DNA of 64,000 nt from Gracilibacillus sp. YIM 98692 (GTDB lineage: Bacteria > Bacillota > Bacilli > Bacillales > Amphibacillaceae). The DNA is taken from contig NZ_WIXM01000001.1 in assembly GCF_010993965.1 (NCBI RefSeq), positions 124,001-188,000 of the forward strand, given 5' to 3'. Below, piece by piece: positions 3,015 to 51,693 of the stretch. The position numbers were made by a program, and so were the translations under genes. A model generated the notes under the pieces. It had not been told where the DNA came from, did not search any database, and was given only the letters and a program-made list of their open reading frames with translations. Every line of letters begins with the position of its first letter. Positions within the stretch are counted from its first letter, which is position 1.

Positions 3015-3857
3015 ATGACAAAACAGATCCCTGAAATCACTTTAAATGATGGAGTAAACATCCCTGTTATCGGCTTCGGTACCGCTAAGCTGAAAGGAAG
3101 TGCGGGTGTTCAAGCAATCACAAGCGCCATCAATCAAGGCTATCGACTGATCGATTCTGCTTATAACTATGAAAACGAAGGAACAGTAGGTGAAGCAGTT
3201 CGCCGCACCTCTGTACCGCGAGAGGATCTATTGATTACATCCAAACTTCCAGGACGCCATCACACATACGATGACGCTATCCAGACAGTTCAAGAATCCT
3301 TATATCGCGCCAACATCGATTACTATGATTTCTATTTGATACATTGGCCAAATCCGAAACAAGATCAATATGTAGAAGCTTGGCAAGCCCTTATCGATGC
3401 AAAAAAATGGGGCTTAATACGTTCAATAGGGGTTTGTAACTTCCTACCAGAGCATCTGGAACGATTAGAGAAGGAAACCGGTGTGAAGCCTAGCATGAAT
3501 CAAATCGAATTACACCCCTTTTTTAATCAAGAAGAACAACGAGCATTTCATGAAGAACAGCAAATTGCCACAGAATCATGGAGCCCGCTGTACCGCGCCC
3601 GTGAAGTATTTCAAAATAAGACGATGAAGAAAATTGCGGATGCTCATGGCAAATCTGTTACACAGATTATCTTACGCTGGCATTATCAGCTTGGAGCGAT
3701 TGCGATTCCGAAATCTTCTTCTCCGGAACGCCAGCTAGAAAACATCTCGATCTTTGACTTTGCTTTAACAGATGAAGAAATGAGCACCTTAGCAGCCCTT
3801 ACACAGCCAGACGGCAGATTAAACGGCCAAGACCCTGCTGTTTATGAGGAATTTTAA
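3015..3857 (+). CDS. Aldo/keto reductase
   Basis: An NADPH-dependent oxidoreductase of the AKR superfamily, 280 residues. The catalytic tetrad is visible as Asp47, Tyr52 (in IDSAYNYENE), Lys77 (ITSKLPG) and His110 (YLIHWPNP). The cofactor loop AIPKSSSPERQLENI lies near the C-terminus. It resembles the B. subtilis YvgN/YtbE glyoxal and methylglyoxal reductases, but substrate range cannot be read from sequence. The start has an AAAGGAG site. It is followed immediately by a strong terminator, so it is probably monocistronic or cotranscribed with maf, which ends 62 bp upstream. Confidence 0.9.
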   Translation: MTKQIPEITLNDGVNIPVIGFGTAKLKGSAGVQAITSAINQGYRLIDSAYNYENEGTVGEAVRRTSVPREDLLITSKLPGRHHTYDDAIQTVQESLYRANIDYYDFYLIHWPNPKQDQYVEAWQALIDAKKWGLIRSIGVCNFLPEHLERLEKETGVKPSMNQIELHPFFNQEEQRAFHEEQQIATESWSPLYRAREVFQNKTMKKIADAHGKSVTQIILRWHYQLGAIAIPKSSSPERQLENISIFDFALTDEEMSTLAALTQPDGRLNGQDPAVYEEF

Positions 3858-3864
3858 AGCAGGA

Positions 3865-3903
3865 AAGCCCCGGGAATGTCAGCAGACATTTCGGGGCCCT
3901 TTC
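3865..3903 (+). terminator. Terminator after the aldo/keto reductase gene
   Basis: AAAGCCCCGGGAATGTC pairs with GACATTTCGGGGCCCTTT around a four-base loop (one mismatch or bulge). It is GC-rich and followed by TTTCTTTT. Confidence 0.9.
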
Positions 3904-3907
3904 TTTT

Positions 3908-3960
3908 ATCCATAAGTTTTGGTCTTTTATCCGTAAGTATTTTATTTATCCTAAGTTTCC
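3908..3960 (-). repeat. Short array of 21-bp LTDK-type repeats
   Basis: TTTATCC followed by ATAAG, GTAAG and TAAG begins at 3910, 3931 and about 3950, so the first two units are exactly 21 bp apart. Read on the minus strand, the stretch gives KILTDKRPKLMDKRK, the same heptad as the arrays at 14.7 and 44.1 kb. It sits between the aldo/keto reductase terminator and the convergent DHFR-like gene. Confidence 0.65.
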
Positions 3961-3961
3961 T

Positions 3962-4591
3962 CTAAGATTCTTCTCTTCTAATTTGGTAGGTAATATGGGT
4001 AACAGTCGGAGAGGCCTTAACGTCAACTGGCTTCCAATTCGATTCAAATTCATCAATGCCTTCAAATAATCGAACACCATCTCCAAGAAAAACAGGAGCA
4101 ATATGAAGCTGACATTCATCTAACAATTTTTCTTTAATCGCTTGTTGAATCACATCTGCTCCACCTGCAATTGCAACATCTAAGGTTCCTGCTTCAATTC
4201 GAGCCTTTTCAATGGCTGTTTGTAATCCATCTGTGACAAAGTGATAACTCGTTCCGCCTTCTTTTCGTTCACTCTCTCTAAAATAATGAGTCACAACAAA
4301 AACCGGCACATGAAATGGCGGGTGCTCTCCCCAAAATTTTTCCCCATGTTGAAACATACGATGTCCCATCACAACAGCGCCTGTTCGTTTCGCTTGTTCT
4401 TCAATAATTTTCGAATCCAGATTTCGATCTCCACCTTGTAAATGGTGCTGCTTGCGCCAGCTTTCTAGTTGATACACCCATTGATGCAGCATATCTCCAC
4501 GGTCACCAAGCGGATTGTCCGGACTATCATTTACTCCAGCAACGAAACCATCCAATGAAACGGATATATGAGTCGTTACCATCCCTACCAT
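3962..4591 (-). CDS. Dihydrofolate reductase-like (RibD C-terminal domain) protein
   Basis: A 209-residue protein of the large DHFR/RibD-C superfamily of small NAD(P)H-binding reductases. Markers are the opening THISVSLDGFVAG, then GAVVMGHRMF, VPVFVVTHY and the late IAGGADVIQQAIKEKLLDECQLHIAPVFLGDGVRLFEG, which matches the nucleotide-binding GG and the P-V-F/L-L-G strand. These proteins are common in Bacillaceae, and most have no assigned substrate. It is unlikely to be the true folate enzyme, which usually sits beside thyA. AAGGAGGAG precedes the ATG. It is a single gene convergent with the aldo/keto reductase. Confidence 0.8.
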   Translation of the reverse strand: MVGMVTTHISVSLDGFVAGVNDSPDNPLGDRGDMLHQWVYQLESWRKQHHLQGGDRNLDSKIIEEQAKRTGAVVMGHRMFQHGEKFWGEHPPFHVPVFVVTHYFRESERKEGGTSYHFVTDGLQTAIEKARIEAGTLDVAIAGGADVIQQAIKEKLLDECQLHIAPVFLGDGVRLFEGIDEFESNWKPVDVKASPTVTHITYQIRREES

Positions 4592-4718
4592 TGATTTCTC
4601 CTCCTTTTTGAATTAGATCCTCTAACGACATGCGAACGACTCTCTGATAAAGAGAGACTTCCATCAGTGGGGGGTGCGGACGATTGTTCACCATGATAAA
4701 CATGATAGTGCTAACTTT

Positions 4719-4734
4719 TTGTTATCGTTTTCAT
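4719..4734 (-). promoter_or_regulatory. CcpA binding site (cre) upstream of the mannitol operon
   Basis: The minus-strand sequence ATGAAAACGATAACAA matches the WTGNAANCGNWNNCWW cre consensus at every position. It lies about 160 bp upstream of the predicted mtlA -35 box. A weaker cre-like element overlaps the -10 box. The gene-free stretch 4592-4995 holds this site, the mtlA promoter and AT-rich sequence where MtlR would be expected to bind. Confidence 0.75.
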
Positions 4735-14556: not shown

Positions 14557-14694
14557 GCAAGTCTCTCCTTAAATGCAAGTGTTGATTTTTTATAGTTATC
14601 ATAACACAACTTTTTCCGAGTGGTCTTATATGTATTCTATCATTTCCGTTAAAAGTTTGAAAAAGACCTACCCTTTTTAGGGGGCACTTTTTCT

Positions 14695-14765
14695 CGTTTA
14701 CCGGTCAGTCTTGCGCGTTTGTCCGTCACTTTCACTGCTTTATCGGTCAGTTGCTCTTGTCAGAC
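14695..14765 (-). repeat. Three 21-bp LTDK-type tandem repeats
   Basis: The core CSGTCA starts at 14702, 14723 and 14744, an exact 21-bp period. On the minus strand the units read EQLTDKAVKVTDKRARLTGK, matching the heptads at 44.1 kb and 3.9 kb. The array lies between the divergent MarR and carbonic anhydrase genes. No start codon of good quality precedes the frame. Confidence 0.75.
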
Positions 14766-22331: not shown

Positions 22332-22636
22332 TTAGGACGTTTCTATCTGCAGTTTTTATCTTTTTTTCCTTTCATACTGCTTTTAGAGCATTCTTATCTG
22401 TAGTTTTATGCTTTTTTTCCTTTCATACTGCTTTTAGAGCATTCTTATCTGTAGTTTTATGCTTTTTTTCCTTCCAATAATGCTTATAGAGCACTCCTAT
22501 CTGCAGTTTTATGCTTTTTTCCTTCCCATAATGCTTTTAAAACGATTCTATCTGTAGTTTTAAGCTTATTTTTCTCCCATAATACTATTAGAACGTTCCT
22601 ATCCGCAGTTTTGAGCAATATACAGTCCTAAGGCGC
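22332..22636 (-). repeat. About six 51-bp tandem repeats
   Basis: Units contain TTCTTATCTGTAGTTTTATG, a T-tract, then CATACTGCTTTTAGAGCA; the two best copies are identical over about 45 bp, and the outer copies have diverged. The period is 51 bp. On the minus strand the outermost unit reads ERSNSIMGEK with stops, matching the array at 51.4 kb. It fills most of the stretch 22252-22762, upstream of the NERD gene and downstream of the AraC terminator. There are no spacers. Confidence 0.9.
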
Positions 22637-34606: not shown

Positions 34607-35083
34607 TCAATCCCAGCCATAATGTTTTTTGCAGGAACAGTGATCATGATGATAGGATTCATGTGTACCATCCCAGCCATGATGTTTTTGGCAAGAACAG
34701 TGATCATGATGATGGGGGTCATGTGTACCATCCCAGCCATGATGTTTTTGGCAAGAACAGTGATCATGATGATGGGGGTCATGTGTACCATCCCAGCCAT
34801 GATGGGTGAACAGCTTACCGCAATTACAATGTTCCTGATGGTGATGATGGCATTTATCACATTTTGTAAAGCAAGAAATATGGATGCAGCATGGAAAACA
34901 ATGACAACGGTGTTGGTGATGATGATCGTGTTTACAGGTACATGGTTTATGTCGTTTATGTCGTTTATGTGGTTTATGTGACTTAAATTTGTGGCATTCA
35001 CAGTGAACTATTAAATCCAGAAGATGGTTATCCGTAAATGATTTGCTGCACTTTTTGCACTTCTTATATTCAGACATTATCAT
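34607..35083 (-). CDS. His/Cys-rich repeat protein, probable metal binder
   Basis: A 158-residue protein with about 40 His and 21 Cys and no known domain. After a short CKKCSKSF zinc-finger-like start comes a basic HKPHKRHKRHKPCTC tract and a Cys/His core. The C-terminus has three and a half 20-residue repeats of HHGWDGTHDPHHHDHCSCQK, encoded by 60-bp DNA repeats at 34621-34800, two of them identical. CxC and HHxH clusters imply binding of several zinc, copper or nickel ions. It has no signal peptide. AAAGGTGG precedes the ATG. It lies on the same strand as a coiled-coil protein and an Hsp20-like protein, so a spore-coat or metal-storage role is possible but inferred. Confidence 0.8.
   Translation of the reverse strand: MIMSEYKKCKKCSKSFTDNHLLDLIVHCECHKFKSHKPHKRHKRHKPCTCKHDHHHQHRCHCFPCCIHISCFTKCDKCHHHHQEHCNCGKLFTHHGWDGTHDPHHHDHCSCQKHHGWDGTHDPHHHDHCSCQKHHGWDGTHESYHHDHCSCKKHYGWD
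34621..34800 (-). repeat. Three 60-bp tandem repeats inside the His/Cys-rich gene
   Basis: Units 34681-34740 and 34741-34800 are identical, and unit 34621-34680 differs at a handful of bases. Each encodes 20 residues. Identical copies point to recent duplication by slippage or unequal recombination, so the copy number is likely to vary between strains. Confidence 0.95.
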
Positions 35084-43784: not shown

Positions 43785-44009
43785 CTAATCGATATCATCA
43801 ATAGCTTTGCCGTCTTCATTAATCTGCTGACTGCTTCCAGTGTAGCACCAGCCTTTCGATTCTAAGAAGTCAATAAATTCATCCATAAACTCATTATGTC
43901 CGACTTCTCCGCCATTTTCTAATGGTAATACGAAACCGTCCAGCTTCACACCTTTTTCCTCACTGTTATCTTTAAACCTTCGATAATTGATGAACATTTG
44001 TTTCTTCAT
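43785..44009 (-). CDS. YggL-like (DUF469) small protein
   Basis: Start ATG at 44009, with AGGGGG seven bases upstream. The 74 residues include GFVLPLENGGEVGHNEFMDEF and FLESKGWCYTGSS, a pattern like the DUF469/YggL family, where members in other bacteria bind the 50S ribosome. The match is partial, so the assignment is tentative. Its 5' leader is the 21-bp repeat array, and it may be read through from the aminotransferase gene. Confidence 0.5.
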   Translation of the reverse strand: MKKQMFINYRRFKDNSEEKGVKLDGFVLPLENGGEVGHNEFMDEFIDFLESKGWCYTGSSQQINEDGKAIDDID

Positions 44010-44036
44010 CACTGCACCCCCTGTAGAGTTCGTTCA

Positions 44037-44160
44037 TTTATCCGTCAGTTTTCGGCTTTTACCCGTCAGTTGGCGAGTTTTATCCGTCAGTTTTGGGCAT
44101 TTGACCGTCACTATTTTCATTTATCCGTCAGTTAACAGCATTTATCCGTCAGCAGCCCAT
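44037..44160 (-). repeat. Six-unit array of 21-bp LTDK-type repeats
   Basis: CCGTCA begins at 44042, 44063, 44084, 44105, 44125 and 44146: spacings 21, 21, 21, 20 and 21. Most units are TTTATCCGTCAGTT plus about seven variable bases. On the minus strand the units read KLTDKTRQLTGKSRKLTDK before a TGA. The array fills the gap between the aminotransferase stop and the YggL-like start. Confidence 0.9.
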
Positions 44161-44170
44161 TTAACTCAGG

Positions 44171-45370
44171 CTATAAACTCTCTTTCACCACTTTACTCAG
44201 CTTTCGCACGCCTTCGATCATATCTTCTTCACTCGCATAACTAAATGACAACCGGAGCCATTCGATACTTTCCTGATTCTCCAAGAAAAAATATTTTCCT
44301 GGAACATAAGAAACACCTGCATCAAGCGCCTGATCTAACATCAATGACGTATCCACACCAGACACCTTGATCCAAATAAAATAGCCACCTTCCGGCACAT
44401 ACCAAGAAACACCATCCGGCATCTGCTCTTTCAATGCAGATAATAATACATTTCTTCTTGCTTGATACGTATTCCGTAACATCTCCAGACGCTTTCCTAA
44501 ATCATTTTTTTCCAAAAAAGTGGCCATAATCGCTTGAGTAAAAGGATGATCTAAATCTTTTTTAAACCAATATAAAGCTTGTATGGTTTCCCTTGTTGTC
44601 GCAACCCAGCCAATGCGAAGCCCTGGTGCCACCACCTTTGATAAAGAGCCGACATACAGTACACGCTCTGCACGATCCAACGCCTTTAAAGGCACAGCCT
44701 GTTCGTCAAAATATAATTCCCCATACGCATCATCTTCTAAAATAAGAAAATCGTATGTTTCTGCAAGCTCGATCACATGCTTCCGACGCGCTTCTGTCAT
44801 CGTCGTCCCGGTCGGATTCTGAAACGTCGGGATCGTGTATAAAAGCTTCGGCAGCGACAATCCCTCCTGTTGTCGATCCTCTAGCATTTTTTCTAACACG
44901 TCCGTCTGCATGCCATATTCATCTACAGGTACATTTAAAAATTGACTCGTATAGTTTTGGAACACTTCTAATGCTTCCATATAAGTAGGCGATTCGATCG
45001 CAATAATCGTTTGTTCATCGATAAAAACACGCGCAATAAAATCAATCGCCTGGCACGCTCCAGCTGTCACTAGCAGTTCTTTATCCGAAACAGGCATGCC
45101 GCGTTCGGCCATCCGATCCTGCAGCATGCTCTTCAGCTGATCCATTTTGGGTGTGCCGAGATAATGCAACGGTAAGTCTTGCTCATCGTCCAGTAAATCC
45201 ACTACCGCATTTTTTATCCCTTCCACCGGGACGAGGTTCGGCGCTGGAAACCCGGAACTGAGACGAATACAGTCGTCCGGCATCGCAGGCATCCATTCCC
45301 CCGGCGGATCATTTTTTAATGCATCTGTAATATTTTTAGAAAAATAGGATTCCATCTTCACTCGTATCAT
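44171..45370 (-). CDS. PLP-dependent aminotransferase (class I/II, 2-aminoadipate type)
   Basis: A 399-residue fold-type I aminotransferase. The PLP lysine is in YVGSLSKVVAPGLRIGW, the cofactor Asp and Tyr in LILEDDAYGEL, and the substrate Arg in WLRLSFSYASEED. Without an N-terminal GntR domain, it belongs to the stand-alone group close to LysN/ARO8-type enzymes that act on branched, aromatic or aminoadipate substrates. AAAGGTGA precedes the ATG at 45370 closely; the GTG or ATG slightly downstream could also be used. It is downstream of the YjiH-type transporter, with a terminator between. Confidence 0.88.
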   Translation of the reverse strand: MIRVKMESYFSKNITDALKNDPPGEWMPAMPDDCIRLSSGFPAPNLVPVEGIKNAVVDLLDDEQDLPLHYLGTPKMDQLKSMLQDRMAERGMPVSDKELLVTAGACQAIDFIARVFIDEQTIIAIESPTYMEALEVFQNYTSQFLNVPVDEYGMQTDVLEKMLEDRQQEGLSLPKLLYTIPTFQNPTGTTMTEARRKHVIELAETYDFLILEDDAYGELYFDEQAVPLKALDRAERVLYVGSLSKVVAPGLRIGWVATTRETIQALYWFKKDLDHPFTQAIMATFLEKNDLGKRLEMLRNTYQARRNVLLSALKEQMPDGVSWYVPEGGYFIWIKVSGVDTSLMLDQALDAGVSYVPGKYFFLENQESIEWLRLSFSYASEEDMIEGVRKLSKVVKESL

Positions 45371-51382: not shown

Positions 51383-51693
51383 CATATATTCGTAGCTTTT
51401 CCTGAGATTTGATCTAATACTATCATTACAACGCTTTTATTCGTAGTTTCTTATGTATTTTGATTTATCACTGTCATTAGAACGCTTCTATTCGTAATTT
51501 CTCCTGAATTTTGGGTCTATACTGCCGTTACAGCGCTCCTATTCGTAATTTCTCCTGAATTTTGGGTCTATACTGCCGTTAGAACGCTCCCATTCGTAGT
51601 TTCTCCTGAATTTTGAGTCCATACTGCCGTTAAAACGCTCCTATTCGTAGTTTCTCCTGAATTTTGGGTCTATACTGCCGTTAGAACGCTCCT
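51383..51693 (-). repeat. About six 51-bp tandem repeats
   Basis: The unit is TATTCGTAGTTTCTCCTGAA, then TTTTGGGTCTATACTGCCGTTAGAACGCTCC. The four central units are nearly identical, and the outer ones are diverged. On the minus strand the unit encodes ERSNGSIDPKFRRNYE and then a stop (TGG in one unit). It fills the gap 51310-51754 between a zinc-ribbon gene and the terminator at 51712. No spacers separate the units. Confidence 0.92.

Follow-up and report, generated by a model that had tools for sequence, protein, structure and literature searches.

Arrays of an asymmetric core repeated every two helical turns in Gracilibacillus and other Bacilli: a candidate cooperative protein-binding element

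Downstream of an aminotransferase gene, Gracilibacillus sp. YIM 98692 carries a short run of near-identical units, and the question is whether this run encodes a peptide, acts in a transcript, works as DNA or is simply a repeat that has spread. The window referred to here is the whole stretch of 64,000 nucleotides that was analysed, and the features of the window on which the argument depends are as follows.

44038 to 44153, plus strand: tandem array of six units (exact search, TRF, mismatch search and autocorrelation).
44101 to 44120, plus strand: the single 20-bp unit of this array (TTGACCGTCACTATTTTCAT), out of the 21-bp frame.
44034 to 44120, minus strand: LTDK-repeat frame of 28 codons with an ATG start, judged not to be a gene.
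44171 to 45370, minus strand: aminotransferase gene (PF00155), its stop 17 bp from the last core of the array.
43785 to 44012, minus strand: downstream gene of 75 amino acids with a weak YggL-like match.
3906 to 3938, plus strand: second array, of two units, after an aldo/keto reductase gene and just beyond an inverted repeat with a T run (by eye).
14676 to 14754, plus strand: third array, of four units (the first degenerate), between divergent genes.

Each of the six units of the window array consists of TTATCCGTCAGT on the plus strand plus 8-9 bases, with cores that read TTATCNGTCA and start on that strand at 44038, 44059, 44080, 44101, 44121, and 44142. A sequence-only reading of the same DNA had reported CCGTCA at 44042, 44063, 44084, 44105, 44125, and 44146, and all six positions are exact. 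Its 21-bp period holds for four of the five steps, which measure 21, 21, 21, 20, and 21 bp, but not for the fourth. Autocorrelation peaks at lag 21 (0.56) and again at lags 41-42 (0.47 and 0.43), while every other lag between 5 and 44 gives 0.17-0.35, and TRF returns a period of 21, 5.7 copies, and a score of 110. With up to two mismatches, TTATCCGTCAGT occurs 13 times in the window, whereas 100 shuffles gave 4.2 occurrences on average and never more than 10. The further copies announced at 3.9 and 14.7 kb are present, likewise 21 bp apart, and the 21-bp period persists in a wider scan of the genome, as that reading had asked to be checked.

The aminotransferase beside the array is confirmed (PF00155, E 3e-34), while the label "YggL-like" for the 75-amino-acid gene is weak: nothing matches at E 0.001, and PF04320 appears at E 0.023 with 16.1 bits, below its cut-off of 27. 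Around the aminotransferase of nine Gracilibacillus relatives (57-68% identity; 1.5 kb on each side), the array was found in none, and by tblastn over the same distance the 75-amino-acid gene stood beside the aminotransferase in none of the nine either. Because this gene is likewise missing there, the gap is not syntenic, and the comparison of orthologous gaps that the sequence-only reading had proposed is a weak test of the array.

That reading saw in the minus strand a series of LTDK heptads and a 25-codon frame opened by a GTG at about 44109. The frame exists, but it is longer, starting at an ATG and running for 28 codons with the GTG three codons within. A small gene for a repeat peptide of LTDKxxx heptads could point to this open frame and to the variable base of the core, which would be the third position of a Thr codon. 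The 20-bp units, however, break the frame at one step in the window and throughout lineages where most units have this length, and stops at the three spacer codons of 367 21-bp units number 10, 5, and 13, compared with 9.3, 9.1, and 12.8 in column shuffles; it is from these chance-level stops and frame-breaking units that the peptide reading fails. The Leu/Val codon shows the opposite of a coding pattern, because its third base (G) is nearly fixed, at 93-100% by lineage, while its first base is variable (the base-composition and coding statistics leave out the giant arrays L079, L194, and L214). A full-text literature search for LTDK gave, among the titles listed, none on the TDK-repeat annotations that the sequence-only reading had mentioned. 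We consider the heptad peptide scarcely credible, and the array is a non-coding DNA element; the description of it as intergenic, lacking a credible gene, and with a period of two helical turns is supported. Elsewhere in the window, at 34610-34804, there are 60-nt repeats of another kind, which are probably coding because they lie inside a His- and Cys-rich frame of 158 amino acids on the minus strand (HHGWDGTHDPHHHDHCSCQK).

The window array belongs to a family with the core TATCNGTCA. A sequence-only model built from 30 dimers of the host genome (a draft of 4.37 Mb) gave 34 matches there at E ≤1, of which the strong ones resolve to 11 arrays of this family, the window array among them; weak matches at two places, C3 and C19, showed no array in the fetched sequence (a third, C25, was left out). 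The core also occurs in scattered Bacilli, namely Cytobacillus, Sporosarcina, Lysinibacillus, Sporolactobacillus, and Gracilibacillus, genera that we place in the Bacillaceae, Planococcaceae, and Sporolactobacillaceae. An exact search with the 21-bp pattern in one genome per species, covering about 85,000 species, returned 55 stretches, of which 52 come from records that bear the names of Bacilli or their kin. The dimer model matched 4 of 159 genomes and 2 of 46 genera in the family-level search (E 1e-4) and 8 of 397 genomes and 6 of 135 genera in the order-level sample (E 1e-5), with the host counted in both; these counts are lower bounds because the filters are strict. Within Gracilibacillus, 3 of the 17 genomes searched are carriers. 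The family is patchy yet wide, and by these strict-threshold counts most relatives seem to live without it. In Cytobacillus oceanisediminis (G168; C21, C23, C28, and C31), several arrays lie within ~700 bases of contig ends, as if they adjoined longer repeats.

From the exact 21-bp matches and about 80 places found with the dimer model, at least 134 arrays with at least 791 units were collected, while the reversed sequence of the same loci gave no array (single loci named Mycobacterium, Prevotella, and Muribaculaceae are inside the 134 arrays and outside the gene-context counts). In this set the unit is the core TATCNGTCA with T on its flanks, followed by variable bases. The N of the core is C in Lysinibacillus, G in Cytobacillus and Sporosarcina, mostly A in Sporolactobacillus, and mixed in Gracilibacillus. 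The step from one unit to the next is 20 or 21 bp in 607 of 657 cases (450 steps of 21, 157 of 20, 11 of 19, 5 of 22, and 1 of 23, with 33 double or triple steps). Units of mostly 20 bp are found in Cytobacillus, Bacillus NTK034, and Sporosarcina globispora, and the other lineages have almost only 21. TRF rows with ≥2.8 copies on the collected loci number 47 at period 20, 117 at 21, and 35 at 40-42, with none at 18, 19, 22, or 23. These figures under-represent spacings other than 20-21 bp, because both the pattern and the model that supplied the arrays presuppose 20-21 bp and the array finder joins units only across steps of 19-23, 39-44, or 60-65 bp.

Five units (38 of 134 arrays) and six units (29 of 134) are the commonest copy numbers, and the longest array among those collected has 53 units. 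This array, L079 (~3514-4726) of Sporosarcina luteola S00266, also has a higher-order period near 103 bp. L194 (32 units) and L214 (25 units), from two Lysinibacillus genomes, are orthologous giants that adjoin a gene that by eye resembles a response regulator. In Sporosarcina the last unit is followed in 26 of 32 arrays by the tail TATCGTCNTT, the alignment continuing ...CGTGACCTTTGACCTAC, where controls gave a mean of 0.0 (the pattern was composed after the alignment had been viewed). A different tail, again a chosen pattern, follows 19 of 41 arrays of the Cytobacillus group against a control mean of 1.8, and neither end sequence is evident in the host lineage (0 of 20 and 1 of 20 arrays). 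Since a conserved sequence stands at one end, the element is polar in at least two lineages.

Several known repeat systems resemble these arrays. The BIME/REP sequences of enterobacteria are tandem extragenic palindromic repeats near the 3' ends of genes, for which protein binding has been proposed; our arrays are also tandem and extragenic, but their units are direct and asymmetric rather than palindromic and give no consistent fold signal, so that we reject membership. CRISPR arrays have near-identical repeats with unique, longer spacers, and this candidate was likewise rejected, the spacers here being 8-9 nt long and some of them recurring within arrays. Clusters of DnaA boxes (TTATNCACA) are alike in being clustered protein sites that start with TTATC. 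The window cores, however, are TTATCNGTCA and not TTATNCACA, and four dnaA loci contained 7-9 standard boxes each and the array core in none. The STAR elements of Staphylococcus are similar as intergenic direct repeats with locus-specific spacers that expand and contract (PMC3532100). Their consensus is a 14-bp G+C-rich sequence, T(G/A/T)TGTTG(G/T)GGCCC(C/A), interspersed with at least 40 bp (PMC3532100), from which TATCNGTCA differs by eye in sequence and also in spacing.

The closest precedent is in Bacillus itself, where two classes of non-coding repeats of constant size, 20-21 nt and 52 nt, have been described (Subirana and Messeguer, 2021; PMC8161180). The authors noted that 21 nt corresponds to two turns of DNA and proposed nucleoid proteins or small RNAs (PMC8161180). 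The TATCNGTCA family is a member of the 20-21-nt class, with which it has in common a constant period, a non-coding nature, the presence of several arrays in a genome, units that share a short sequence, a patchy distribution among species, and the company of 52-nt arrays in some genomes, the host included. That class is delimited by a length of 20-21 nt (±1), which the steps and TRF periods given above show; by at least four repeats within 800 nt, where the window array has six and 111 of the 134 arrays have at least four units; by a place outside protein-coding genes, in line with the 20-bp steps and chance-level stops; and by a short characteristic sequence common to every repeat in the majority of a species' arrays, where TATCNGTCA is seen in 11 host arrays but in only three of the seven 21-nt TRF rows of 1.26 Mb of host sequence, the other four having different cores. 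Published 20-21-nt repeats have species-specific sequences, such as the TCGCGG signal of B. weihaiensis, except in B. simplex and B. muralis (PMC8161180), unlike the single core TATCNGTCA that spans several genera. Polarity, the end sequence, gene position, and core conservation are not in the main text of PMC8161180, and this core across families, with its polarity, gene position, and conservation, was not found in the open-licence literature, supplements aside.

Many arrays have orthologs in other species whose flanks align on one or both sides, and 18 of 21 orthologous sets were used to compare core and spacer. Mismatches amount to 114 of 1384 core positions in register (8.2%; 0-10% at the inner nine positions), or to 158 of 1488 (10.6%) when 104 out-of-register positions, 44 of them mismatched, are included, as opposed to 214 of 732 spacer positions (29%) and 21-35% in the flanks. 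Two core positions are invariant in 107 of 107 comparisons, and the number of units differs freely between orthologs (e.g., 8, 6, and 5). Because core mismatch is below that of spacers and flanks, the comparison argues for purifying selection on the core, for which a partial alternative is that units in the first sequence of each pair were detected by their likeness to the core; exchange between units of one array could also account for part of the conservation. These sets bear directly on the view of the arrays as a selfish or neutral dispersed repeat that spreads into tolerant gaps, expands by slippage, and is useless to the host. Such a repeat would be expected to be patchy, as the family is, to survive in gaps distant from promoters, and to vary in copy number as the orthologs do and as the largest array, with its 53 units, suggests. 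The core, however, is kept relative to the spacers at orthologous loci. In mobile DNA, one contig of the viral collection (locus L243) matched the array pattern, and three plasmid queries returned nothing or a single weak, unrelated hit. We consider the selfish repeat quite unlikely.

The arrays show a bias in their position among genes. Genes were called with a home-made codon-usage caller, and each orthologous set was counted once, which leaves 98 independent arrays. Convergent gaps hold 32 of 98 arrays (33%) compared with 29 of 223 background gaps (13%; p 8.5e-5), divergent gaps 11 of 98 (11%) compared with 68 of 223 (30.5%; p 1.4e-4), and tandem gaps 56% compared with 56.5%. Of the arrays in tandem gaps, 39 have their TTATC strand antisense to the genes and 16 have it sense (p 0.0027). 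The antisense-to-sense ratio is 12:0 in Lysinibacillus, 8:2 in Gracilibacillus, and 8:3 in Sporosarcina, with no bias in the Cytobacillus group (9:10) and too few cases in Sporolactobacillus (2:1); the preference is thus complete in Lysinibacillus only and absent from the Cytobacillus group. Terminator-like hairpins stand between gene and array for 43 of 85 right-hand genes on the opposite strand and 40 of 57 left-hand genes on the same strand (gaps <600 bp; raw rates from array-bearing gaps only).

Replication polarity was considered as a general rule and rejected. On scaffold 1 of L. sphaericus OT4b.31 it is obeyed at 20 of 21 places if the terminus lies at 2.36-2.92 Mb, and at 17 of 21 if it lies at the midpoint, but at 8 of 14 in S. 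thermotolerans and 7 of 14 in S. globispora (places were grouped and counted by hand, with the terminus assumed opposite dnaA). Gene-specific regulation was rejected as well: the 487 array-flanking proteins form small clusters, of which the largest has nine proteins from six genomes (by eye). A gene near arrays L159, L071, and L235, in Cytobacillus, Sporolactobacillus, and Sporosarcina, respectively, is presumably secA.

Convergent enrichment, divergent depletion, the orientation bias, and nearness to terminator-like sites would also suit a roadblock or backup terminator, in which a protein-bound array or a Rho-loading RNA stops read-through and antisense transcription between genes. Few arrays are present per genome, however (11 in the host), and Rho loading would not need a strict 9-base core. 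A roadblock seems to us distinctly improbable.

The same terminator-like sites bear on whether the arrays work as RNA, lying in a 3' extension or a small RNA and serving as a sponge or platform for an RNA-binding protein or another RNA. The sequence-only reading held that the window array is probably on a transcript, and this may be so there, as the gap between the aminotransferase and the array showed no terminator-like site; elsewhere hairpins often separate gene and array, and many arrays lie beyond such sites. Transcription has been reported for 52-nt arrays in B. coagulans (Subirana and Messeguer, 2021; PMC8161180). Some arrays also outfold their dinucleotide shuffles, with z-scores of -3.4 on one strand of L230 and of -2.8 and -2.1 at L178, but the two window strands give -0.9 and -0.7 (16 strands of eight loci were folded; two slices cover the array partly and one holds a terminator hairpin). 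When spacers of the same lineage were swapped in and the cores kept, in arrays of 4-9 units with every step 20 or 21, mean fold z-scores ranged from -0.61 to +0.30 on both strands in five lineages and 85 arrays, so that neither these arrays nor the 16 strands show a consistent RNA-structure signal. Rfam at gathering scores has no match in the window and one match among 15 loci, 1.3 kb from the array. This match, a Bacillaceae-1 RNA at L178 5863-5929 in Cytobacillus oceanisediminis, may be a neighbor by chance. We regard an RNA element as unlikely.

The explanation toward which we lean, with moderate confidence, is a cooperative binding array for a putative asymmetric DNA-binding protein, with one site per two helical turns. 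About five asymmetric sites with the core TATCNGTCA in a T-rich setting would stand 20-21 bp, or two turns, apart, and because of this spacing all of them would lie on one face of the DNA, where the putative sequence-specific protein could bind head to tail and cooperatively. Binding on one face fits the strict asymmetric 9-base core, the two-turn steps, and the free spacers; it fits equally the lack of coding and of consistent RNA structure and the tolerance of 20 and 21 bp but rarely of 19 or 22, among the steps that the finder allows. The resulting nucleoprotein patch would mark, insulate, or anchor the space between transcription units. We infer that the use of the arrays is most likely architectural because they are intergenic, prefer convergent gaps, often lie beyond terminators, and have a preferred direction in most lineages.

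The second published size class raises the question of whether the helical rule extends further. TRF on 1.26 Mb of the host, comprising the window plus 60 stretches, gave at ≥2.8 copies seven 21-nt rows and seven 51-52-nt rows, and a pattern for the 51-52-nt arrays matched the whole host genome 33 times forward and three times in reverse, with no match for the pattern read backwards. Ten host arrays of this kind carry CTATNNGYAGTTTT in their units (loose scoring; C16 and C29 left out). The best-scoring inverted core lies at an offset of 30 or 31 in 9 of these 10, although it falls below threshold in two (L249 and L318) and several of the best scores are modest, at 6-7 of 12. While the published 52-nt repeats (PMC8161180) are also represented in the host, their units, of 51-52 nt here, tend to have two inverted cores and not one, and successive cores tend to be three and two turns apart in alternation. 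The window itself contains two 51-nt arrays (22343-22612 and 51387-51693), which differ in sequence, both lie between minus-strand genes, have CTAT-NNG-YAGTTT-like cores, and are members of the 52-nt class by size. By eye, the commonest unit of B. coagulans has a CGCTCTAT stretch in common with host units, and the consensus repeats listed in Table 1 of that paper do not show the 51-52-nt host core (PMC8161180).

On this basis the 21-nt and 52-nt repeats of Bacillus relatives might be two layouts of one code, a tentative idea that we rate as doubtful. In the 21-nt arrays the core TATCNGTCAGTTTT would recur as direct copies at two-turn intervals; in the 51-52-nt arrays a similar core one base shorter, CTATYNGYAGTTTT, would form inverted pairs 30-31 bp apart with ~21 bp to the next pair, so that three and two turns would make five turns, or 52 bp. 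Both layouts would be read by a single protein or by two related ones, and the DNA helix would fix the repeat size. The match of the 51-52-nt arrays to the 21-nt core has p 0.002-0.08 per array against mononucleotide shuffles. With such values, and with arrays that are related and not independent, a relationship between the two cores is no more than suggested and is to be taken as a lead. At odds with the two-layout idea, four of the seven 21-nt rows have other cores. Host arrays of this last sort are found at L279 (1326-1397 and 8918-9017), L295 (517-576), and L250 (7642-7700), with sequences such as GGGCCACTTTT and CGAGCCACTTTT, and three of the four have only a CACTTTT-like half in common with the TATCNGTCA family.

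Some Bacillus genomes are full of tandem repeats of two constant sizes, 21 and 52 nt. A core common to distant genera, its two-turn spacing, a polar end, and the conservation of core over spacer turn the description of such repeats into something testable, with the prediction that a protein retrievable with the TATCNGTCA core sequence should exist. If it is true that the 52-nt layout obeys the same helical rule, the constant repeat sizes would be simply explained.
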